Both the position numbers and the translations under genes were made by a program. Source: Rhizobium brockwellii (GTDB taxonomy: Bacteria; Pseudomonadota; Alphaproteobacteria; Rhizobiales; Rhizobiaceae). Taken from it: a stretch of 64,000 bases of DNA. Shown one piece after another: positions 54,146-64,000 of this stretch. The stretch lies in assembly GCF_000769405.2 (NCBI RefSeq), contig NZ_CP053439.1, forward strand, positions 1,426,001 to 1,490,000. Reading direction: 5' to 3'. Below the pieces are notes generated by a model. It ran no database searches and was not told where the DNA came from. It was given only the letters and a program-made list of their open reading frames with translations. How positions within the stretch are numbered: position 1 is the first letter of the stretch; each line of letters opens with the position of its first letter.

Positions 54146-54159
54146 TTAGATCGTTCCAA
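54146..54159. promoter_or_regulatory. Upstream operator-like site for the LacI regulator
   Basis: TTAGATCGTTCCAA matches 12 of 14 bases of the perfect palindrome at 54252-54265. The two centres are 106 bases apart, close to ten helical turns, which would allow DNA looping by a tetrameric LacI-family repressor. The looping is inference. Confidence 0.45.
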
Positions 54160-54242: not shown

Positions 54243-54271
54243 TTGACTTAATTGGAACGTTCCAAATATTA
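54243..54271 (+). promoter_or_regulatory. Promoter with LacI-type operator in the spacer
   Basis: TTGACT (54243-54248) and ATATTA (54266-54271) are 17 bases apart. The spacer contains the perfect 14-bp palindrome TTGGAACGTTCCAA (54252-54265), typical of LacI-family operators with a central CG. A repressor bound there would block RNA polymerase. The promoter lies 35 bases upstream of the lacI-type start, so the operon probably regulates itself. Confidence 0.7.
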
Positions 54272-54305
54272 GGCAACCATTCGACGTTGGCGTCGGGGAG
54301 GAGAA

Positions 54306-55352
54306 ATGACAAAGGCGCGGGTAACCGTCATCGACATTGCGAAGGCCGCCGGCGTCTCGAAATCGACGGTTTCGCTGGTGCTTCAGGGCTCTTCCCTGGT
54401 CAATGAGGGGACGCGCACCAAGGTCAACGCCGTGATGCGTGAGCTGGGCTACGTCTACAATCGCGGCGCAGCCAATCTCCGGCAGGCCGGCGCCAAATCG
54501 AGGATCATCGGGGTCGTCGTCAACGACCTGACGAACAGCTTCTTCGCGGAACTGGCGGTTGGCGTCGATATGGTCGTTCAGTCGGCCGGATTTGTGCAGT
54601 TCCTGTCGAACACCAGCGAGAGCATCGACAGGCAGCGCGAAGTTGTCGCATCGATGCGGGAACATGGCATTTCGGGGCTCATCGTGTCGCCGGCGCGCGC
54701 CACCGATGCCGCAGATTTCAAACCACTCGTCGCCGCAGGGATTCCGGTGGTGGTCGTCGTCAGAAACCTGCCTGGCGCCAAAGTCTCGTCCGTCGTCTCC
54801 GACAACCGGGCTGGCATGATGTCTGCAGTCAAGCACTTGGCGGACCTTGGTCACAAGCGCATCGCTTTTCTCGGCGGCTTTCCCGACACCGCTGTCTTCG
54901 ACGACCGCCTTGCCGGTTACCGAAGCGGCATGGAGGCAGCCGGTCTCGACTATCACCAAGAACTTGTCATCTCGTCGGCGCCTTCGCGAGCCGGCGGGGT
55001 AGAGGCGATCGGAAAAGCAATCGTTCTTGCCGACAAACCCTCAGCAGCCGTCTGCTTCAACGATGCCGTAGCCTTCGGTGTTTGCGACGGATTGCGTGCG
55101 CGCCGTCTGGAACCCGGCTCCGACTTCGCGGTCGTGGGTTTCGACGACGTCATCGAGGCTCAGGCGGCGGTTCCGGCGCTGACGACCGTCTCGGTCGATC
55201 CGCAGGGCATCGGGCGCCGCGGCGCCCAACTGCTTCTCAAGCAGATTAATGCGGGCAAGGCCGAGGCGGAGACGGTGACGACAGCTGTTCGGCTGGTTGT
55301 TCGCGAGAGCTGCGGAGCCCGCAAGAGCGTGAAAATTGAAACAGGACTCTGA
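54306..55352 (+). CDS. LacI family transcriptional regulator
   Basis: The 348-aa protein starts with the LacI helix-turn-helix VTVIDIAKAAGVSKSTVSLVLQGSSLVNEGTRTKVNAVMRELGYVYN (residues about 4-50), including the hinge. A periplasmic-binding-like effector domain with IIGVVVNDLTNSFFAELAVG follows, and DFAVVGFDDVIEAQAAVPALTTVSVDP is at its C-terminal part. It is the first gene of the operon and the likely repressor acting at the upstream palindromes. The CoA-transferase gene follows after 9 bases. Confidence 0.95.
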   Translation: MTKARVTVIDIAKAAGVSKSTVSLVLQGSSLVNEGTRTKVNAVMRELGYVYNRGAANLRQAGAKSRIIGVVVNDLTNSFFAELAVGVDMVVQSAGFVQFLSNTSESIDRQREVVASMREHGISGLIVSPARATDAADFKPLVAAGIPVVVVVRNLPGAKVSSVVSDNRAGMMSAVKHLADLGHKRIAFLGGFPDTAVFDDRLAGYRSGMEAAGLDYHQELVISSAPSRAGGVEAIGKAIVLADKPSAAVCFNDAVAFGVCDGLRARRLEPGSDFAVVGFDDVIEAQAAVPALTTVSVDPQGIGRRGAQLLLKQINAGKAEAETVTTAVRLVVRESCGARKSVKIETGL

Positions 55353-55361
55353 GTAAGGCCC

Positions 55362-56975
55362 ATGAAGAAGCATCTCACCCCGACCGAAGCAGCCGCGCTG
55401 ATCCCGGATGGCGCTGTTGTAACGGTATCGTCCTCGAGCGGTCTCGGTTGCCCGGACCTCATGCTGAAGGCGATTGGCGAACGTTTCGACGCGACCGGCC
55501 ATCCCCGTGATATCACGACCCTTCATCCCATCGCCGCCGGCGACATGAGCGGCATCAAAGGCGTCGACCATATCGCCAAGAAGGGCCTGCTCGCGCGCAT
55601 CATCGGTGGCTCCTATCCGTCCGGCCCGTCGTCATCCGAGCCGCCGCTGATCTGGCAAATGATCACCAACAACGAAATCCCCGCTTACAACATTCCATCG
55701 GGTATCCTCTTCGACATCCATCGCGAGGCCGCCGCGAAGCGGCCGGGCGTCCTGACCAAGATCGGCATCGATACATTCGTCGATCCCGAGCGGCAGGGTT
55801 GCGCGATGAACGGCCTGGCGTCGGAAAATCCGGTGGTCAAGCGCGTGCGCTTCGAGGGCGACGACTGGCTGTTCTTTCCCTCGATCGTCCCGGAGGTCGC
55901 CATCATCCGCGCTACCACCGCCGACGAGCGCGGCAACCTGACATACGAACATGAAGGCGCCTATCTCGGCGGCCTCGATCAGGCGCTGGCCGCACGCAAC
56001 AACGGCGGCATCGTCATCGCCCAGGTCAAGCGGATCACCAAGGAAGGCTCGCTGAAGCCCCACGACGTTCGGGTTCCTGGAATGCTGGTCGACTATGTGG
56101 TCATCGATCCGGAGCAGAAGCAGACGACGCAGACGCAATATGATCCGGCGATTTCCGGGGAGATCTTCCGTCCGCTCGATAGCTTCAGCGTTCCGGAGTT
56201 CAATGTTCAGAAAGTCATCGCGCGCCGTGTTGCGCAGGAACTTCAGGCTGGAAGCTGCGTCAATCTCGGTTTCGGCATATCGGCCAACGTGCCGCGAATT
56301 CTGCTGGAGGAAGGGCTCCATGGCGCGGTCACCTGGGTCATCGAGCAAGGCGCGGTCGGTGGCGTGCCGCTGCTCGACTTCGCCTTTGGCTGCGCCTCCA
56401 ATGCCGACGCCTACATGCCGTCCCCCTATCAGTTCACCTACTTCCAGGGTGCAGGCTTCGATGCATCGCTGCTGTCCTTTCTCGAGATCGGCAAAGACGG
56501 TTCGGTCAACGTCTCCAAGCTCTCCTTCCGGCCGCATGTGACGGCGGGCGCCGGAGGCTTCGTCGACATCACGGCGCGGGCGAAGAAGATCGTCTTCTCC
56601 GGCATGTTCAATGCCGGAGCGAAGCTTTCGATTGCCGATGGAGCTCTTCTCATCGACAAGGAAGGCAAGTTGAAGAAACTCGTGAAGGAGGTCGAACACG
56701 TCACTTTCAGCGGCAGGCGCGCGATCGAGCAGGGGCAGGAGATCACCTATGTCACCGAGCGGTGCGTGATGAAACTGACGCCCGATGGCGTCGTCCTCAC
56801 CGAGATTGCGCCCGGCGTCGATCTCCAAGCCCACATCCTCGATCAGTCGGAGTTTCCGCTGATGGTGGCGCCCGACCTGAAGGTCATGGACGCGGCGCTC
56901 TTCGCGGAGGCAAACATCGGCCTGTCGCTTCCAGAAAAGAAGGCGCGGACGCTGGAGGGCAGCTTCAATGGCTAG
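55362..56975 (+). CDS. Acyl-CoA:acetate/3-ketoacid CoA-transferase (PCT/YdiF-like)
   Basis: The 537-aa chain has the two halves of family I CoA-transferases fused in one protein. The first half carries GGSYPSGPSSSEPPLIWQM. The second half carries the catalytic glutamate E328 in WVIEQGAVGGVPL, where the acyl group forms a glutamyl-CoA thioester. Length and order match propionate CoA-transferase and E. coli YdiF. It moves CoA between short-chain acids. It overlaps the next gene by 8 bases. Confidence 0.9.
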   Translation: MKKHLTPTEAAALIPDGAVVTVSSSSGLGCPDLMLKAIGERFDATGHPRDITTLHPIAAGDMSGIKGVDHIAKKGLLARIIGGSYPSGPSSSEPPLIWQMITNNEIPAYNIPSGILFDIHREAAAKRPGVLTKIGIDTFVDPERQGCAMNGLASENPVVKRVRFEGDDWLFFPSIVPEVAIIRATTADERGNLTYEHEGAYLGGLDQALAARNNGGIVIAQVKRITKEGSLKPHDVRVPGMLVDYVVIDPEQKQTTQTQYDPAISGEIFRPLDSFSVPEFNVQKVIARRVAQELQAGSCVNLGFGISANVPRILLEEGLHGAVTWVIEQGAVGGVPLLDFAFGCASNADAYMPSPYQFTYFQGAGFDASLLSFLEIGKDGSVNVSKLSFRPHVTAGAGGFVDITARAKKIVFSGMFNAGAKLSIADGALLIDKEGKLKKLVKEVEHVTFSGRRAIEQGQEITYVTERCVMKLTPDGVVLTEIAPGVDLQAHILDQSEFPLMVAPDLKVMDAALFAEANIGLSLPEKKARTLEGSFNG

Positions 56976-57747
56976 CGGAACAGTCAGAATTGACGTCGAT
57001 GGACATGTTGCGACGCTGACGATTTCTCGTCCGGAGAAGCTGAACGCGCTCGACCTCGATATGCTCAAGGCGTTGGCGGATGCGGCCGACGAGGTGGAGG
57101 CCAACGCCAATGTGCGCGCTGCCATTCTCACGGGCGAAGGAAAGGGCTTTTCCGCCGGAGGCGATATCAAGGCCTGGGGCGGAATGTTGCCTCAGGAGTT
57201 CGGTCATCTCTGGGTTCGCCACGGCCACCGTATCTTCGAAAGACTGGCGACGCTCAGGGTGCCGCTGATCGCGGCTCTGAACGGCCATGCCCTCGGAGGA
57301 GGACTTGAACTTGCAGGCGTCGCGGACATTCGCCTCGCCGAGGAACAGATCAAGATCGGCCTGCCGGAGACCGGCCTTGGAATGGTGCCGGGCTGGTCCG
57401 GGACCCAGCGTCTTGTGCGCCGGTTCAGTGCGCAGGCCGTCCGGCGTATGGCTTTGGGCGGCGAGATATTCACCGCCGAGGAGGCACGCCTGCTCGGGAT
57501 CGTAGACGCGGTCGTTCCCACAGGAAACGCGCTCGCCGCCGCCCGGGAATATGCGCAGCGGATCGCCGCAAGGGGGCCGGCTGCGACCGAGATCGCGAAG
57601 TTGATGATCGCATCGGCGAACGGCGAAGACAATGGAACCGCGGTCGAAGCCCTGGGCTCGATCCTCGCTGCGAAGACCGGCGATCTGAAGGAGGGCGTCG
57701 CATCATTCAGCGAGAAGCGCCCGGCAACGTTCAAGGGAGAATGGTAA
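56968..57747 (+). CDS. Enoyl-CoA hydratase/isomerase (crotonase) family
   Basis: The 259-aa protein has the crotonase fold: GKGFSAGGDIKAW (oxyanion region) and NGHALGGGLELAGVADIRLAEEQIKIGLPETGLG. Both glutamates of true hydratases are present, E114 and E134, spaced by 20 as in rat enzyme E144/E164. It should therefore hydrate an enoyl-CoA rather than act only as isomerase. It overlaps the CoA-transferase by 8 bases and the aldehyde dehydrogenase by 1. Confidence 0.9.
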   Translation: MASGTVRIDVDGHVATLTISRPEKLNALDLDMLKALADAADEVEANANVRAAILTGEGKGFSAGGDIKAWGGMLPQEFGHLWVRHGHRIFERLATLRVPLIAALNGHALGGGLELAGVADIRLAEEQIKIGLPETGLGMVPGWSGTQRLVRRFSAQAVRRMALGGEIFTAEEARLLGIVDAVVPTGNALAAAREYAQRIAARGPAATEIAKLMIASANGEDNGTAVEALGSILAAKTGDLKEGVASFSEKRPATFKGEW

Positions 57748-59267
57748 TGACGGTTCTCGTCAACCCCACCGCGCTCAACGACCACAAAGCGCGTGATTTC
57801 AAGATGCTCATCGACGGCAGATGGGAGGCTGGTGCCTCCGATCCGATCGAGCGTGTCGCGCCGAGCCATGGTGTCGTGGTCAGCCGGTTTCCGACCGGCA
57901 GCAGGAAGGACGCCGAGCGTGCGATTTCCGCGGCACGCAAGGCTTTCGATCTTGGGCCGTGGCCCCGAATGACCGCTTCCGAACGTTCCGCCATCCTGCT
58001 CAAGGCGGCCGATCTGATCGCAGCGCGCGCAGAGGAGCTGGCATTTCTCGATGCTATCGAGGCAGGAAAGCCGATCACGCAGGTGCGGGGAGAAATTGCA
58101 GGCTCCGTTGACATATGGCGTTACGCGGCGGCACTTGCCCGCGACCTTCACGGTGAAAGCTACAACACGCTCGGCGACGGCACGCTCGGCGTCGTCTTGC
58201 GCGAAGCGATCGGCGTGGTGTCGATCATCACGCCTTGGAACTTTCCGTTCCTGATCGTCGGCCAGAAGCTGCCATTCGCCTTGGCCGCTGGCTGCACGAC
58301 CGTCGTCAAGCCCTCGGAACTGACCTCGGGATCGACGCTGGTGCTGGGAGAGATCCTGCAGCAGGCTGGCATTCCGGATGGTGTCGTCAACATTGTCACC
58401 GGCACGGGACCAGAGGTCGGTGCGATCATGACCTCCCATCCCGACGTCGACATGGTGTCCTTCACCGGCTCGACCGGCGTGGGAAAGCTGACCATGTCGA
58501 ATGCCGCACAGACGCTGAAGAAGGTCTCGCTGGAATTGGGTGGGAAGAACCCGCAGATCGTGTTTCCGGATGCCGATCTCGGTGCCTTCATCGATGCCGC
58601 GGTCTTCGGCGCATACTTCAATGCCGGCGAGTGCTGCAATGCCGGTTCGCGGCTGATCCTTCACAAATCAATCGCTTCCGATGTCGTCAAGCGGATTGCC
58701 GAATTGTCGAAGGCAGTGAAGGTCGGTGACCCGCTCGATCCCTCGACGCAGGTCGGCGCCATCATCACGCCACAGCATCTGGAGAAAATATCAGGATACG
58801 TTGCCGGCGCGAGGAGCAGCGGTGCCCGGGTCGCGCATGGCGGCGAGACGCTCGACCTCGGCATGGGGCAGTTCATGTCGCCGACGATCCTCGAAGAGGT
58901 CACCCCTGATATGGCCATGGCGCGCGAGGAAGTCTTTGGCCCGGTGCTTTCGGTCCTGACATTCGAGACATCAGCAGAAGCCATCAGGATTGCGAATTCC
59001 ATCGACTACGGCCTGTCGGCCGGTGTCTGGAGCCGCGATTTCGACACGTGCCTGACGATCGGCCGATCGGTGCGGGCGGGCACGGTCTGGATGAACACCT
59101 TCATGGACGGCGCCTCGGAACTTCCCTTTGGCGGCTACAAGCAAAGCGGCCTCGGCCGCGAACTCGGCCGCCATGCGGTCGAAGATTACACGGAGACCAA
59201 GACGCTGAACATGCATATCGGCAAACGCACCAGCTGGTGGATGCCGCAGACGGAAAAGCCGGCTTAG
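57747..59267 (+). CDS. Aldehyde dehydrogenase
   Basis: The 506-aa NAD(P)-dependent enzyme has the cofactor motif FTGSTGVGK, the general base E263 in SLELGGK and the catalytic cysteine C297 in [11 protein letters not shown] (spacing 34, as in the family). ATG 57747 is chosen because AAGGGAGA is correctly spaced for it; ATG 57741 is too close. It should oxidise an aldehyde to an acid that the CoA-transferase could activate. The substrate is unknown. Confidence 0.95.
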
Positions 59268-59306
59268 CCGGCGGCCGAACTACGCTCGAGGAGGGCGGGT
59301 GATTGG

Positions 59307-59325
59307 TGCGGGAATGGGTCCCGCA
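59307..59325 (+). promoter_or_regulatory. Hairpin upstream of the binding-protein gene
   Basis: TGCGGGA / TCCCGCA with a 5-base loop lies 31 bases before the binding-protein start. Just after it is the palindrome TTCCAAACTGGAA (59328-59340). Together they sit in the 88-base gap after the aldehyde dehydrogenase and could tune expression of the highly needed binding protein. Confidence 0.4.
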
Positions 59326-59355
59326 TCTTCCAAACTGGAACTGGGAGGTTCTTCG

Positions 59356-60618
59356 ATGAACAAGTTTTTGACCACGACCGCAATGATCGCGTTGGCTCTG
59401 GCCGGCGCTGGCGTGTCCGCCCACGCCGCCGACGTCAAGGAAGTGCAGATGCTGCACTGGTGGACGTCGGGCGGTGAGGCAGCGGCGCTGAACGTCTTGA
59501 AGCAGGATCTTTCCAAGGAAGGTTTTGCCTGGAAGGACGTTCCGGTTGCCGGCGGTGGCGGCGATGCGGCGATGACGGCGCTGAAGGCGATGGTTGCGGC
59601 CGGCACCTATCCGACAGCCTCGCAGATGCTGGGCTATACCGTGCTCGACTATGCCCAGGCCGGTGTCATGGGCGATCTGACCGAGACGGCGAAGAAGGAA
59701 GGCTGGGACAAGTCGGTTCCGGCAGCCCTGCAGAAGTTCTCGGTCTATGACGGCAAGTGGGTCGCAGCCCCGGTCAATGTTCACTCGGTCAACTGGCTGT
59801 GGATCAACAAGGCGGTGATGGACAAGATCGGCGGCACCCAGCCGAAGACCTTCGACGAGCTGATCGCGCTGCTCGACAAGGCCAAGGCCGCCGGCGTCAT
59901 CCCGCTGGCTCTCGGCGGCCAGAACTGGCAGGAAGCGACGATGTTCGATTCCATCGTGCTGTCGACCGGCGGTCCGGAGTTCTACAAGAAGGCCTTCAAC
60001 GACCTCGACGAGGAATCGCTGAAGTCCGACACGATGAAGAAGTCGTTCGATAACCTGGCCACGATCATCAAATATGTCGACCCGAACTTCTCGGGCCGCG
60101 ACTGGAACCTGGCAACCGCCATGGTCATCAAGGGTGATGCGCTGGTGCAGGTGATGGGCGACTGGGCCAAGGGCGAATTCGTCGCCGCCAAGAAGACGCC
60201 GGACACCGACTTCCTGTGCTACCGCTTCCCCGGAACCGACGGCAGCGTGGTCTACAACTCCGACATGTTCGGCATGTTCAACGTTCCCGATGACCGCAAG
60301 GCGGCCCAGGTGGCGCTGGCAACCGCAACGCTGTCGAAGAGCTTCCAGTCGGCCTTCAACGTCGTCAAGGGATCGGTGCCGGCTCGCACCGACGTTCCCG
60401 ATACCGACTTCGACGCCTGCGGCAAGAAGGGCATCGCCGACCTGAAGGCTGCCAACGAAGGCGGCACGCTGTTCGGCTCGCTGGCGCAAGGCTACGGCGC
60501 CCCGCCGGCCATCGCCAATGCCTACAAGGATGTCGTCTCGAAGTTCGTCCACGGCCAGATCAAGACCTCCGACGAAGCCGTCAAGCAGCTCGTCCAGGCG
60601 ATCGACGACGCCCGCTGA
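59356..60618 (+). CDS. Sugar ABC transporter, periplasmic substrate-binding protein (CUT1 type)
   Basis: The 420-aa precursor has a signal peptide ([24 protein letters not shown]). The mature protein begins [20 protein letters not shown] and contains [33 protein letters not shown]. This resembles glucose/mannose-type binding proteins such as GtsA by memory. ATG 59356 is supported by GGGAGG. It is the first of four transporter genes. A strong 11-bp hairpin follows the stop, which often stabilises binding-protein mRNA. Confidence 0.92.
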
Positions 60619-60638
60619 GATCACGTGTGATGACAAAT

Positions 60639-60664
60639 GCTTCCCCGCCTGCTGGCGGGGAAGC
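60639..60664 (+). promoter_or_regulatory. mRNA-stabilising type hairpin after the binding-protein gene
   Basis: GCTTCCCCGCC (60639-60649) pairs perfectly with GGCGGGGAAGC (60654-60664) around TGCT. No T-tract follows, so it is not a full terminator. This layout commonly gives more binding protein than permease. A second inverted GC-rich pair (GCCCCG around 60686-60691 with CGGGGC at 60715-60720) lies further on. Confidence 0.6.
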
Positions 60665-60760
60665 TTCAGGCTCCGCGCCGATCATGCCCCGACAATTATG
60701 CGGGGATGATCATGCGGGGCCGATTGCCCGGACGATTATGCAGGCAGGAGATGACATTCC

Positions 60761-61714
60761 ATGAGCACCGTTGCGACCACCGATCCGGTTCTGACGCCGA
60801 GGCAATCGACGGGGATCTCGTTGAGGGGCCGGCTGCAGGATGCGCTGCCGAAGATCGTGCTGGCGCCGAGCTTCGTCATCACCATCATCTTCGTCTACGG
60901 CTTCATCGTCTGGACGGCCTATCTGTCGTTCACCAATTCCAAGACCTTTCCCTCCTATGCGCTGACGGGGCCACGCGCCTATCAGCGGCTGTGGCGCTGG
61001 ACCTTCGAGAGCGATCCGCCGTCTTCCTGGTACACCTCGATCACCAACATGGCGATCTTCGGCTTCCTCTATATCGGCATCTGCCTGGCGCTCGGCCTGT
61101 TCCTCGCCATCCTGCTCGACCAGAAGATCCGCGGCGAGAGCGTGTTGCGGCCGATCTTCCTCTATCCGATGGCGCTGTCCTTCATCGTCACAGGCGTTGC
61201 CTGGAAATGGTTCCTCGATCCCGGCCTCGGGCTGGAACAGACGCTGCACCACTTTGGCTGGACAAGCTTCCACTTCGACTGGATCAAGAACAAGGACTTT
61301 GTCATCTACACCGTCGTCATCGCCGGTGTCTGGCAGGCGTCCGGCTTCGTCATGGCGATGTTCCTGGCGGGCCTGCGCGGCATCGACGGCGAGATCATGA
61401 AGGCCGCCCAGATCGACGGCGCCTCGTCCTTCCAGCTCTATCGGCGCATCGTCATCCCGCTGCTGCGGCCGATCTTTCTGTCCGCCTTCATCGTGCTCGC
61501 CCATATGGCGATCAAGTCCTATGACCTGGTGGTGGCGCTGACCTCGGGCGGCCCCGGCGGATCGGCCTGGCTGCCGTCCAACTTCATGTATGAATACACC
61601 TTCAAGCGCAACGAGATGGCCGTCGGTTCGGCCAGCGCCATCATCATGCTGATGACGATCTCGGCGATCATCGTTCCCTATCTCTATTCCGAACTGAAGG
61701 AGAAGGCGCGATGA
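60761..61714 (+). CDS. Sugar ABC transporter permease 1
   Basis: The 317-aa inner-membrane protein has six or so helices and the permease EAA loop EIMKAAQIDGASSFQLYRRIVIPLL (about residues 210-234), which contacts the ATPase. MalF-type position. It overlaps the next permease by 4 bases (ATGA). Confidence 0.93.
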   Translation: MSTVATTDPVLTPRQSTGISLRGRLQDALPKIVLAPSFVITIIFVYGFIVWTAYLSFTNSKTFPSYALTGPRAYQRLWRWTFESDPPSSWYTSITNMAIFGFLYIGICLALGLFLAILLDQKIRGESVLRPIFLYPMALSFIVTGVAWKWFLDPGLGLEQTLHHFGWTSFHFDWIKNKDFVIYTVVIAGVWQASGFVMAMFLAGLRGIDGEIMKAAQIDGASSFQLYRRIVIPLLRPIFLSAFIVLAHMAIKSYDLVVALTSGGPGGSAWLPSNFMYEYTFKRNEMAVGSASAIIMLMTISAIIVPYLYSELKEKAR

Positions 61715-62655
61715 GCAGCGTGACCTCTCCGACAGCAACCTCGCAAAACAGCAACAATACCCGCTGGATCGGCCGCACCGTCATCTACGGCCTGCTGCTG
61801 GTCTTTGCCGTCCTCTATCTGATGCCGCTCTTCGTCATGCTGACGACCTCGTTCAAGACCATGGACGAGATCCAGAACGGCAACATGCTGGCGCTGCCGC
61901 AATCGCCGACCTTAGACCCCTGGATCAAGGCCTGGGGCGAGACCTGCGTCGGGCTGACCTGCGCCGGCATCAAGGGTTATTTCTGGAACTCGATCAAGAT
62001 GGTCGTGCCGGCTGTGGCGATCTCCACCATCATGGGCGCGCTCAACGGCTATGTCCTGACCAAATGGCGTTTCCCGGGCCACACGCTGGTGTTCGGGCTG
62101 ATGCTGTTTGCCTGCTTCATCCCGTTCCAGTCGGTGCTGTTGCCGATGGCAACGATCCTCGGCAGCCTCGGCCGCTTCGGCATGACGTTGCAGAATGCCA
62201 CGGGCTGGAACTTCGGCTTCGGCAATCCGACCGTCAATCTGGTCTTCGTCCATGTCGTCTATGGCCTCGGCTTCACGACGCTGTTCTTCCGCAATTTCTA
62301 CGAGGCCTTTCCGACCGAACTGGTCAGAGCCGCCCAGGTCGATGGCGCCAGCTTCTTCCAGATCTTCCGCCGCATCATGCTGCCGAACTCGCTGCCGATC
62401 ATCGTCGTCACCGTCATCTACCAGTTCACCAATATCTGGAACGACTTCCTGTTTGCCTCGGCCTATGCCGGCACCGGTGACACCATGCCGATGACGGTGG
62501 CGCTGAACAATGTCGTCAACACCTCGACCGGCGTCGTCGAATACAATGTCAACATGGCGGCTGCGATGATCGCAGCCGTGCCGACGCTCATCGTCTATAT
62601 CCTCGCCGGCCGCTACTTCGTGCGCGGTCTGATGGCGGGCGCTGTCAAAGGGTAA
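61711..62655 (+). CDS. Sugar ABC transporter permease 2
   Basis: The 314-aa MalG-type permease has several helices and the EAA loop AFPTELVRAAQVDGASFFQIFRRIMLPNSLP. Its start overlaps permease 1 and its stop is 3 bases before the ATPase, so the genes are co-translated. Confidence 0.93.
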   Translation: MSSVTSPTATSQNSNNTRWIGRTVIYGLLLVFAVLYLMPLFVMLTTSFKTMDEIQNGNMLALPQSPTLDPWIKAWGETCVGLTCAGIKGYFWNSIKMVVPAVAISTIMGALNGYVLTKWRFPGHTLVFGLMLFACFIPFQSVLLPMATILGSLGRFGMTLQNATGWNFGFGNPTVNLVFVHVVYGLGFTTLFFRNFYEAFPTELVRAAQVDGASFFQIFRRIMLPNSLPIIVVTVIYQFTNIWNDFLFASAYAGTGDTMPMTVALNNVVNTSTGVVEYNVNMAAAMIAAVPTLIVYILAGRYFVRGLMAGAVKG

Positions 62656-62658
62656 TCC

Positions 62659-63774
62659 ATGGCCTTCCTCGAAATCTCCGGTCTCAAAAAGCGCTTCGGC
62701 GCCGTCGACATTCTCAAGGGGATCGACCTCGAACTCGAAAAGGGCGGCTTTCTCGTGCTGGTCGGCCCGTCCGGCTGCGGCAAGTCGACGCTGCTCAACA
62801 CCATTGCCGGGCTGGAGACGATCACCTCCGGCGATATCAAGATCGACGGGCGCGACATCAGCGGTCTGCATCCCTCCAAGCGCGACATCGCCATGGTGTT
62901 CCAGTCCTATGCGCTCTATCCGAACATGACGGTGGCGGGCAACATCGCCTTCGGCATGGAGATCCGCGGCGTTCCCAAGGAGGAGCGTGTCAAGGCGATT
63001 GCCCAAGTCTCCGACATGCTGCAGATCGGCCATCTGCTTGACCGCAAGCCGAGCCAGCTCTCCGGCGGCCAGCGCCAGCGTGTCGCCATGGGGAGGGCGC
63101 TGGTGCGCAATCCGCAGGTCTTCCTGTTCGACGAGCCGCTCTCCAATCTCGACGCCAAGCTGCGCGTCGACATGCGCACCGAGATCAAGCGGCTGCATCA
63201 GCGCATGGGCACCACCTTTGTCTATGTCACCCATGACCAGATCGAGGCGATGACGCTGGCGACCAAGATCGCCGTGCTGAAGGATGGCGTGTTGCAGCAG
63301 TTCGGCACGCCGGCCGAGATCTATAACAGCCCTTCCAATATCTTCGTCGCCGACTTCATGGGATCGCCGGCGATGAACCTGCTCAACGCCACCGTCGAAA
63401 ACGGCGCCGGCGGGCTCGAAGTCTCGCTGGAGCGGCCCCATGCCACACCGCTGAGGCTCCCGGTCATCTCAGGCAACGACGGCCTGACCGCCTATACCGG
63501 CAGACAGGTGATCTTCGGCATCCGGCCTGAGGCCTTGACCGATCCCGATGGCGCCGACCGCAAGGCGCGCTCGCTGACCGAAGGCGATTGCCTGATCGAG
63601 GTGGTCGAACCCGCCGGCTCCGACACCTTCGCCGTCACCAAGCTCGGCGGCAAATCTGTCGTCGCCCGCCTGCGCGCTGATACCGGCATCGCTCCAGGAC
63701 AAAACACCCGCCTCGCATTCAATCTCGACAAGGCCGTCTTCTTCGATCCCGAAACACAGGCGCGGATCGTGTGA
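62659..63774 (+). CDS. Sugar ABC transporter ATPase (MalK/UgpC type)
   Basis: The 371-aa protein has Walker A GPSGCGKST, Q-loop, signature LSGGQRQRVAMGRA, Walker B VFLFDEPLSNLDAKLR and the H-loop THDQIEAM. The C-terminal MalK-type domain (from about residue 240) includes VIFGIRPEAL. Such domains bind regulators in some systems. It completes the importer. Confidence 0.95.
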   Translation: MAFLEISGLKKRFGAVDILKGIDLELEKGGFLVLVGPSGCGKSTLLNTIAGLETITSGDIKIDGRDISGLHPSKRDIAMVFQSYALYPNMTVAGNIAFGMEIRGVPKEERVKAIAQVSDMLQIGHLLDRKPSQLSGGQRQRVAMGRALVRNPQVFLFDEPLSNLDAKLRVDMRTEIKRLHQRMGTTFVYVTHDQIEAMTLATKIAVLKDGVLQQFGTPAEIYNSPSNIFVADFMGSPAMNLLNATVENGAGGLEVSLERPHATPLRLPVISGNDGLTAYTGRQVIFGIRPEALTDPDGADRKARSLTEGDCLIEVVEPAGSDTFAVTKLGGKSVVARLRADTGIAPGQNTRLAFNLDKAVFFDPETQARIV

Positions 63775-63789
63775 TGGCCAGGTGCTAAC

Positions 63790-64000
63790 ATGAGCAGTTC
63801 ACCTGACATCGTCATCATCGGTTCAGGAGTCGGCGGCGCCACGGTCGCAGCCGGCCTGGCTGCGACCGGTGCGCAGATATTGATCCTCGAAGCCGGCGAC
63901 CATATCGCCGACCTTCCTGTTAACCGCGACCAACGCGCGATCTTCCAGCGGGGACATTTTCGACCGAAGGAAACCTGGTACGAGGCGAACGGCAAGGGAT
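63790..64000 (+). CDS. GMC-type FAD-dependent oxidoreductase (3' end outside window)
   Basis: Only the first 70 residues are present. MSSSPDIVIIGSGVGGATVAAGLAATGAQILILEAGDHI is the FAD-binding Rossmann motif (GxGxxG) of glucose-methanol-choline oxidoreductases, with a following ExG. Such enzymes oxidise alcohols, including sugars and polyols. It begins 15 bases after the ATPase, so it is part of the operon. The family call rests on the N-terminus alone. Confidence 0.75.
   Translation, partial: MSSSPDIVIIGSGVGGATVAAGLAATGAQILILEAGDHIADLPVNRDQRAIFQRGHFRPKETWYEANGKG

Follow-up and report, generated by a model that had tools for sequence, protein, structure and literature searches.

We studied a window of 64,000 nucleotides of the Rhizobium brockwellii genome (RefSeq assembly GCF_000769405.2, contig NZ_CP053439.1, positions 1,426,001 to 1,490,000 of the forward strand), the end of which carries a predicted LacI-controlled operon that joins a sugar-type ATP-binding cassette (ABC) importer to oxidoreductases and enzymes of coenzyme A (CoA) chemistry. 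Positions given below are those of the window. A preliminary description of this DNA had listed nine genes with several overlaps, and all nine were found on the + strand in the order stated, the permeases by position and conserved order. The first is the gene of a LacI-family repressor (lacI, 54306..55352; PF00356 and PF13377 domain matches), followed by genes assigned by domain scan to a class I CoA-transferase of the YdiF type (55362..56975; 2ahu match of 376 bits), an enoyl-CoA hydratase or crotonase (ECH, 56968..57747) and an NAD(P)-type aldehyde dehydrogenase (ALDH, 57741..59267). Next come the gene of a glucose-type periplasmic binding protein (59356..60618; the listed open reading frame (ORF) opens at 59299, and the likely start is 59356), the genes of ABC permeases 1 and 2 (60761..61714 and 61711..62655), a UgpC/MalK-type ABC ATPase gene found by domain scan (62659..63774), and the start of GMC1 (63790..64000), which is related to the large subunits of FAD glucose and fructose dehydrogenases. 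GMC1 is cut by the window edge at 64000; the full gene (L009:10791-12341) ends at the window-equivalent position 65340.

Reading past base 64000, as the preliminary description had advised, extends the operon on the same strand by GMC2, a Gfo/Idh/MocA oxidoreductase (389 aa) and a flavoprotein (694 aa) of the fumarate reductase/succinate dehydrogenase/aspartate oxidase superfamily, up to about 70281, beyond which the first long ORF taken to be a gene lies on the opposite strand. The full order is thus lacI, CoA-transferase, ECH, ALDH, binding protein, two permeases, ATPase, GMC1, GMC2, Gfo/Idh and flavoprotein, with successive gaps from lacI onward of 9, -8, -7, 88, 142, -4, 3, 15, -17, 24 and 5 bp. 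The overlaps measure 8, 7 and 4 bp in the window, and that of 17 bp between GMC1 and GMC2 lies past it. The 142-bp gap between binding protein and permease 1 belongs to an intergenic stretch (60616..60762, + strand) with two strong predicted RNA hairpins (-70.1 kcal/mol, z -4.08).

The region upstream of lacI contains a promoter-like pair of hexamers, TTGACT and AATATT, with a 16-bp spacer (54243..54270, + strand), the first base of which, 63 bp 5' of lacI, is where the preliminary description had set the start of the operon. With 9/12 matches, and a mean of 0.4 such sites per region in shuffled sequence, it is weak taken alone. A perfect 14-bp palindrome, TTGGAACGTTCCAA, lies in its spacer and touches the second hexamer (54252..54265). 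This proximal operator is the sole exact copy in the 7.1-Mb genome, and in the 13 loci with the region upstream of lacI in view it was kept in all 13, with no mismatch in 11 and one in 2; in 300-bp windows drawn at random from these loci, some of which cover true sites, matches with 0-1 mismatch were found in 52/2,600 and with up to 3 mismatches in 73/2,600. A distal operator-like site, TTAGATCGTTCCAA (54146..54159), matches the proximal one with 2 mismatches and stands 106 bp from it. Sites of this kind (up to 3 mismatches) were present 98-204 bp 5' of the proximal operator in 14/14 listed loci, and locus L102 also has two sites, so that all 15 loci inspected keep the pair. A gene for a LacI-type helix-turn-helix protein and a conserved palindromic operator at the promoter agree with a predicted LacI-controlled operon.

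Residues expected of active enzymes are strongly conserved. In counts of 69 to 70 sequences, which take in loci of a sister cluster described below, the CoA_trans-domain protein has an invariant candidate active-site residue, Glu328 (69/69), ECH keeps glutamates 114 and 134 and the tryptophan of its PGW(S/G)GTQ signature (70/70), and ALDH keeps Cys299 and Glu265 (70/70). We take Glu328 to be the catalytic glutamate of the CoA-transferase and the two ECH glutamates to be equivalent to Glu144 and Glu164 of the rat enzyme. On these grounds the first protein is predicted to be a YdiF-type class I CoA-transferase and the second a crotonase-type hydratase or dehydratase; the signature tryptophan was not seen in the other crotonase-like matches of this genome, of which there are seven. 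GMC1 matches the large subunits of FAD glucose and fructose dehydrogenases with 116 and 109 bits, and the best solved matches of GMC2 are choline dehydrogenase (9lq0, 389 bits), a chloramphenicol-inactivating oxidoreductase, alcohol oxidase and choline oxidase. The binding protein belongs to SBP_bac_1 and matches 4r2b (550 bits), 5dvf (367 bits) and the "glucose-binding protein" 2b3b (130 bits). Together with two permeases assigned by position and order and a MalK-type ATPase, this is the composition expected of a glucose-type CUT1 ABC importer. The glucose-type affiliation of the binding protein makes a glucose-shaped ligand probable, rather than just any glycoside or polyol.

To learn how widely this arrangement is shared, we collected GMC1 relatives in named genomes and kept the best 80 of at least 583, a set that leans to close relatives. 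The window's genome falls by similarity in the R. leguminosarum group; among the matches listed, the loci closest in GMC1 (96-98%) belong to R. ruizarguesonis, R. leguminosarum, R. johnstonii and their close kin. The CoA-transferase was in view in 52 of the 80 loci; the remaining 28 begin downstream of this gene, at a contig end. The preliminary description had advised searching for the same gene order elsewhere, and had considered that a regular split of the enzymes from the transporter would speak against it. The nine-gene core from CoA-transferase through ECH, ALDH, binding protein, permeases and ATPase to GMC1 and GMC2 was intact and in order in 50 of these 52 named loci, and no such split was seen, the transporter being present in 51. 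The two exceptions in order are L034, which is without a transporter of its own, and L063, where ALDH was not found. The association of these genes exceeds chance, in loci chosen by GMC1 similarity and including many close relatives.

A wider version of the operon provides a link to a known enzyme. In it, the gene of a 333-aa Gfo/Idh protein stands directly after lacI, and this protein matches the solved 1,5-anhydro-D-fructose reductases (AFR) 2glx (585 bits, residues 3-333) and 4koa (574 bits). In an even draw of 247 genomes of the family, searched with E-value limits of 1e-150 for the CoA-transferase and 1e-90 for AFR, the former was present in 81 genomes (90 places) and the latter in 64 (65 places). 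AFR genomes almost always had the CoA-transferase as well (63/64), and 61 of the 65 AFR places lay within 300 bp of it on the same strand, or 62 within 3 kb; a hypergeometric figure for this pairing takes no account of kinship. The three remaining places are in genome G236, where AFR is near a contig end, in G073, as a second copy, and in G200. Seen from the CoA-transferase, the 47 places with at least 80% identity had AFR within 3 kb in 40 cases and the flavoprotein within 20 kb in 3, and 4 had neither in reach (G029, G194, G067, G236). AFR was present at 7/7 places with 74-80% identity; at 60-74%, the range of the sister cluster, AFR was within 3 kb at 15/36 places and the flavoprotein was found at 6/36. 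Divergent versions in Microvirga (L092), Roseibium porphyridii (L104), Peteryoungia (L105), L111-L113 and L117 show the same order where it is visible, AFR still being paired with the CoA-transferase in Microvirga, Roseibium and Peteryoungia, and in L112 fourteen consecutive same-strand genes include those for Dabb and DUF993 proteins and lacI. Because AFR is linked to the CoA-transferase of the operon, we consider 1,5-anhydrohexoses the likely substrate class.

The AFR-CoA operon of R. porphyridii, a bacterium from the red alga Porphyridium, lies on a 49-kb plasmid. Red algae make 1,5-anhydrofructose with an alpha-1,4-glucan lyase.

Two positions of the operon are filled by different enzymes in different lineages. 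All 78 loci with at least 3.5 kb visible past GMC2 have either a short-chain dehydrogenase/reductase (SDR) between GMC1 and GMC2 (38) or the flavoprotein (40), and none has both or neither; L081 and L089, dropped for short flanks, are of the SDR type. In the 45 loci with both flanks visible, AFR only was found in 34, another Gfo/Idh enzyme only in 8, both in one (L045) and neither in two (L034, L039). These counts are of loci related by descent and not of independent events. The window's operon, which is without the SDR and has the other Gfo/Idh enzyme and the fumarate-reductase-like flavoprotein, seems to be a derived version in which two slots were refilled by unrelated or distant enzymes. 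A glycerate 2-kinase gene neighbours the operon in 23/78 loci, all of the SDR type, and the window's genome carries a glycerate kinase (67%) and a DUF993 protein (60%) elsewhere.

The DUF993 protein (PF06187, 624 bits; solved relative 4dnh, uncharacterised) has a GIK motif that is invariant in 5/5 sequences and that we take to resemble the Schiff-base lysine motif of DHDPS-type aldolases. Its gene is within the operon in L112. In Microvirga (L092) and S. meliloti (L095), it is divergent from the operon and shares the control region with it, the distal operator lying, as judged from coordinates, about 40-56 bp before the DUF993 start. Given the position of the distal operator just before the divergent gene in these two loci, the DUF993 gene appears to be part of the regulon. 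In the window, the distal site is retained although DUF993 is not adjacent.

The transporter genes have a history of their own. The block from the mature binding protein to the ATPase stop (59419..63774, + strand; 4,356 bp) is 99.885% identical to a second copy in the same genome (G000:C1:3911231-3915586, other strand; locus L010), which lies near a GH2 glycosidase gene; the signal peptides of the two copies differ. An assembly artefact was set aside as the source of this duplicate: the copies differ at 5 sites, their surroundings differ, and they recur in two other complete chromosomes. Identity of the block within a genome is 99.89% in the window's genome, 98.86% in strain Norway and 98.29% in strain 3841, and between strains it is 95.7-96.3% in any combination. 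Identity that is higher within genomes than between strains points to ongoing gene conversion, by which, on this comparison of sequences, the two copies are held alike in concerted evolution in three strains. Duplication of the transporter is also the likely reason why the contigs of numerous draft genomes in the R. leguminosarum/phaseoli clade end within the transporter genes, most often in the ATPase gene. Over longer distances, comparison of the loci indicates that the transporter core is swapped repeatedly between lineages. L074 and L076 are 95% identical in the CoA-transferase and 91% in GMC1, yet the identity of their binding proteins is 60% and that of permease 1 is 66%, and binding proteins and permeases of the 90% class occur in L066, L068, L073, L074, L113 and L117, the other genes of which are close to, or no nearer than, those of 60%-class lineages.

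Taken together, these observations lead us to favour, at roughly even confidence for substrate class and CoA route in the operon family as a whole, the reading that these LacI-controlled operons import a glucose-shaped, ring-locked sugar, likely a 1,5-anhydrohexose or -hexitol, which would be degraded via an acyl-CoA. Candidate substrates are 1,5-anhydrofructose (AF), 1,5-anhydroglucitol (AG) and 1,5-anhydromannitol (AM). A 1,5-anhydrohexitol has no anomeric carbon, and its ring therefore cannot open. In the sequence of steps that we infer, the substrate would enter through the glucose-type importer, and GMC1 and AFR (in the window, the different Gfo/Idh enzyme) would adjust the C2, or C3, centre, converting AG to AF and AF to AM. 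GMC2, of the choline-dehydrogenase/alcohol-oxidase type, and ALDH would then oxidise C6 to the carboxylate, from which the CoA-transferase would form an acyl-CoA, making the hydrogen at C5 acidic. ECH could now expel the C4 (beta) hydroxyl, as on any beta-hydroxyacyl-CoA, to give a C4=C5 enol ether; addition of water at C5 would yield a hemiketal, the ring of which would open to a 2-keto-3-deoxy acid, and the CoA would be recycled via the CoA-transferase. The aldolase-like DUF993 protein may split this acid to pyruvate and a C3 unit, either directly, with glyceraldehyde as the C3 unit, or once the SDR or the flavoprotein has oxidised C4. In a variant of this last step, the SDR or the flavoprotein would oxidise C4, and a hydrolase would split the resulting 2,4-diketo acid to pyruvate and glycerate, the substrate of glycerate 2-kinase. 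Both L105 and L107 carry, close to AFR, genes with the annotation fumarylacetoacetate hydrolase family; NCBIfam gave no match for L105 and only sub-threshold matches for L107. In a Fischer projection drawn by hand, AM leads to the D-erythro acid, 2-keto-3-deoxygluconate (KDG), and AG to the L-threo acid; formation of KDG from AM would account for AFR acting early to set the manno configuration.

The steps of acyl-CoA formation, C4 dehydration and ring opening, as drawn, are a tentative proposal, which we consider possible rather than probable. Equally speculative, for now, is the wider idea of a new sugar catabolism in which a C6 carboxyl-CoA and a crotonase dehydration open a ring that has no anomeric carbon, AFR sets the stereochemistry of D-KDG, SDR and flavoprotein are interchangeable, and AM, AG and AF are used aerobically. 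The preliminary description had proposed uptake, oxidation of an alcohol to the aldehyde and then the acid, transfer of CoA and hydration of an enoyl-CoA, as a plausible order, and had held that the substrate is probably not a simple sugar and that a glycoside, polyol or other imported alcohol would fit. Its order of steps and its argument against a simple sugar agree with the AFR-linked evidence. Its broad substrate range can be narrowed to a probably glucose-shaped ligand, given the 4r2b and 2b3b matches, and to 1,5-anhydrohexoses through AFR, and its hydration step would be better replaced by a dehydration. With a sister-cluster protein as query, no acyl-CoA dehydrogenase was found at 40% identity or more in any of the 80 loci, nor was one present among ten scanned operon proteins; the enoyl-CoA probably arises, then, from a beta-hydroxyacyl-CoA, and it is more likely that ECH removes water from such a compound than that it hydrates an enoyl-CoA made upstream. 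In outline, the earlier interpretation is partly supported; what we add to it is a substrate class, suggested by the linkage to AFR, and an explanation of the CoA chemistry that can be tested.

Several observations weigh against this reading. AFR was not found in the window's genome, where the best match genome-wide has 30% identity, and the substrate of this clade may thus have shifted. The Gfo/Idh enzyme of the clade, whose nearest solved relative is 6a3f (257 bits), resembles levoglucosan dehydrogenase, staying below the cut-off of the NCBIfam equivalog (307.7 bits against 650). AFR and CoA-transferase also occur apart: besides the 3 of 65 family places mentioned above, one of them at a contig end, in the stretch viewed of a Bradyrhizobium plasmid (L103), GMC1 is the only other operon gene that accompanies AFR, and the viewed stretch of Komagataeibacter (L107) contains AFR and nothing else of the operon. 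Conversely, many of the CoA-transferase places at 60-74% identity that have no AFR are those of the sister cluster. Viewed for a clue to the substrate, two AFR loci without the CoA-transferase, L114 and L115, contain ABC and GMC relatives and genes for a thiamine pyrophosphate enzyme, a histidinol-dehydrogenase-like protein, a class II aldolase and kinase-like proteins. The top-scoring solved relative of ECH is a 3-hydroxypropionyl-CoA dehydratase and not a sugar enzyme, no enzyme is assigned to hydration of the enol ether, and the enzymes of the CoA route are predicted ones. Data on S. meliloti genes SMc04390-92 and SMc04396 speak for the reading: we assign SMc04390-96 to the S. meliloti operon by product name and order, not by sequence comparison, and presume its AFR to be Smc04400. 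The putative sugar transporter gene smc04396 is described as dextrin-induced in PMC4960864, though dextrin is not a defined inducer. A table in PMC12542648 gives log2 values of -1.98, -2.38 and -1.80 for SMc04390 (L-sorbose dehydrogenase), SMc04391 (short-chain dehydrogenase) and SMc04392 (dehydrogenase transmembrane protein).

Among other explanations, the operon might serve another glycoside or polyol through CoA chemistry, such as an alkyl glucoside or the sugar moiety of a C-glycoside from plants; for the R. leguminosarum clade, levoglucosan is a further example. The replacement of AFR in this clade by an enzyme resembling levoglucosan dehydrogenase, below the cut-off, speaks for this, and the recurrent exchange of binding protein and permeases may mean a shifting ligand range; but the remaining core enzymes stay put in AFR-containing and AFR-lacking versions alike, and levoglucosan has no free C6 alcohol for GMC2 and ALDH. 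We judge this explanation unlikely.

Somewhat less likely still is that the operon serves the route already published. According to a 2025 review (PMC12441222), Rhizobiaceae reduce AF to AM, and an unidentified P450-like enzyme then hydroxylates C1 to give mannose. Such a hydroxylation would bypass everything from C6 oxidation to ring opening, which also counts against the CoA route, and the CoA genes would act elsewhere, for example on a side product. Set against it are the retention of CoA-transferase, ECH, ALDH and both GMC enzymes in the 50 ordered loci and the tie of AFR to the CoA-transferase; moreover, in the incomplete gene tables of five annotated relatives of the operon, none of the entries names a P450 or other monooxygenase. 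For the published route the review cites Kuehn et al. 2006.

We regard as improbable a third explanation, in which glucose is taken up, GMC1 forms 2-ketoglucose and the Gfo/Idh enzyme converts it to mannose, while ALDH, CoA-transferase and ECH handle an unrelated short acid such as 3-hydroxypropionate. The glucose-type binding protein, the relation of GMC1 to glucose and fructose dehydrogenases and the nearest relative of ECH would all suit it, and AFR also reduces 2-ketoaldoses. However, the genes of two unrelated pathways would be unlikely to remain intermixed, as they are in 50 of the 52 loci, under a single control region with paired operators. Three other candidates were set aside: a fatty-acid-type beta-oxidation operon, for want of a relative of the sister cluster's acyl-CoA dehydrogenase at 40% identity or more in the 80 loci; hydroxycinnamate-type chemistry, in which CoA-transferase, ECH and ALDH would yield an aromatic aldehyde and which does not fit a glucose-type importer, two GMC enzymes and AFR; and a 1,3-propanediol or 3-hydroxypropionate route, prompted by the nearest relative of ECH, which does not fit the importer and survives within the glucose-uptake explanation. 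The ten scanned operon proteins showed no acryloyl-CoA reductase; other reductase types were not searched for in relatives.

If degradation of a 1,5-anhydrohexose via an acyl-CoA is correct, the operon family would represent the missing aerobic route for 1,5-anhydro-mannitol, -glucitol and -fructose. For the aerobic step after AFR, it offers a short list of candidate genes in soil bacteria that are easy to work with, and it suggests in chemical terms why a sugar operon should contain a CoA-transferase and an enoyl-CoA hydratase. The exchange of the SDR for an unrelated flavoprotein, one or the other in 78/78 loci, together with transporter swapping, also makes the operon a clear example of how a pathway evolves by modules. 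The same review (PMC12441222) connects the substrates to human disease: 1,5-anhydroglucitol phosphate accumulates in the neutropenia of glycogen storage disease Ib (GSDIb) and G6PC3 deficiency, and a probiotic lowering 1,5-anhydroglucitol would need an enzyme that tolerates oxygen. Our literature search, the coverage of which excluded most subscription journals, showed no such CoA route among the entries listed.

Among the closest known systems is the AF catabolism of S. morelense and S. meliloti; many Rhizobiaceae have an orthologous operon with AFR beside the same CoA-transferase, and CoA-transferase, ECH, ALDH, transporter, GMC1 and GMC2 are common to both. In contrast to it, the window's genome has no AFR, and its operon is without the SDR and adds a Gfo/Idh enzyme and a flavoprotein; the published next step is C1 hydroxylation, whereas the operon suggests an acyl-CoA route. 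Measured against an AF catabolic locus, the window thus has the neighbouring catabolic genes in conserved order and no AFR orthologue in its genome. Anaerobic breakdown of AG and AM, as described in PMC12441222, uses phosphorylation by the phosphotransferase system (PTS) and the glycyl-radical enzymes YbiW and PflD of E. coli. The proposed substrates are the same here, but ABC import, oxidoreductases and CoA enzymes would take the place of the PTS and an oxygen-sensitive radical enzyme. Glucose-type CUT1 importers (4r2b, 5dvf, 2b3b) have a homologous binding protein, which here is encoded with CoA-dependent enzymes and has a predicted ligand only. The sister cluster of rhizobial and Paracoccus plasmids (L091, L093, L106), in which no AFR or GMC1 match was found in the stretches viewed, shares the CoA-transferase (67-70%), ECH (52-56%), glycerate kinase, SDR, DUF993 and a GMC2-like protein. 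It differs in having an acyl-CoA dehydrogenase, aldo/keto reductases, an alcohol dehydrogenase and a sugar ABC importer of a different kind, and also, in L091 and L106, an electron transfer flavoprotein (ETF).

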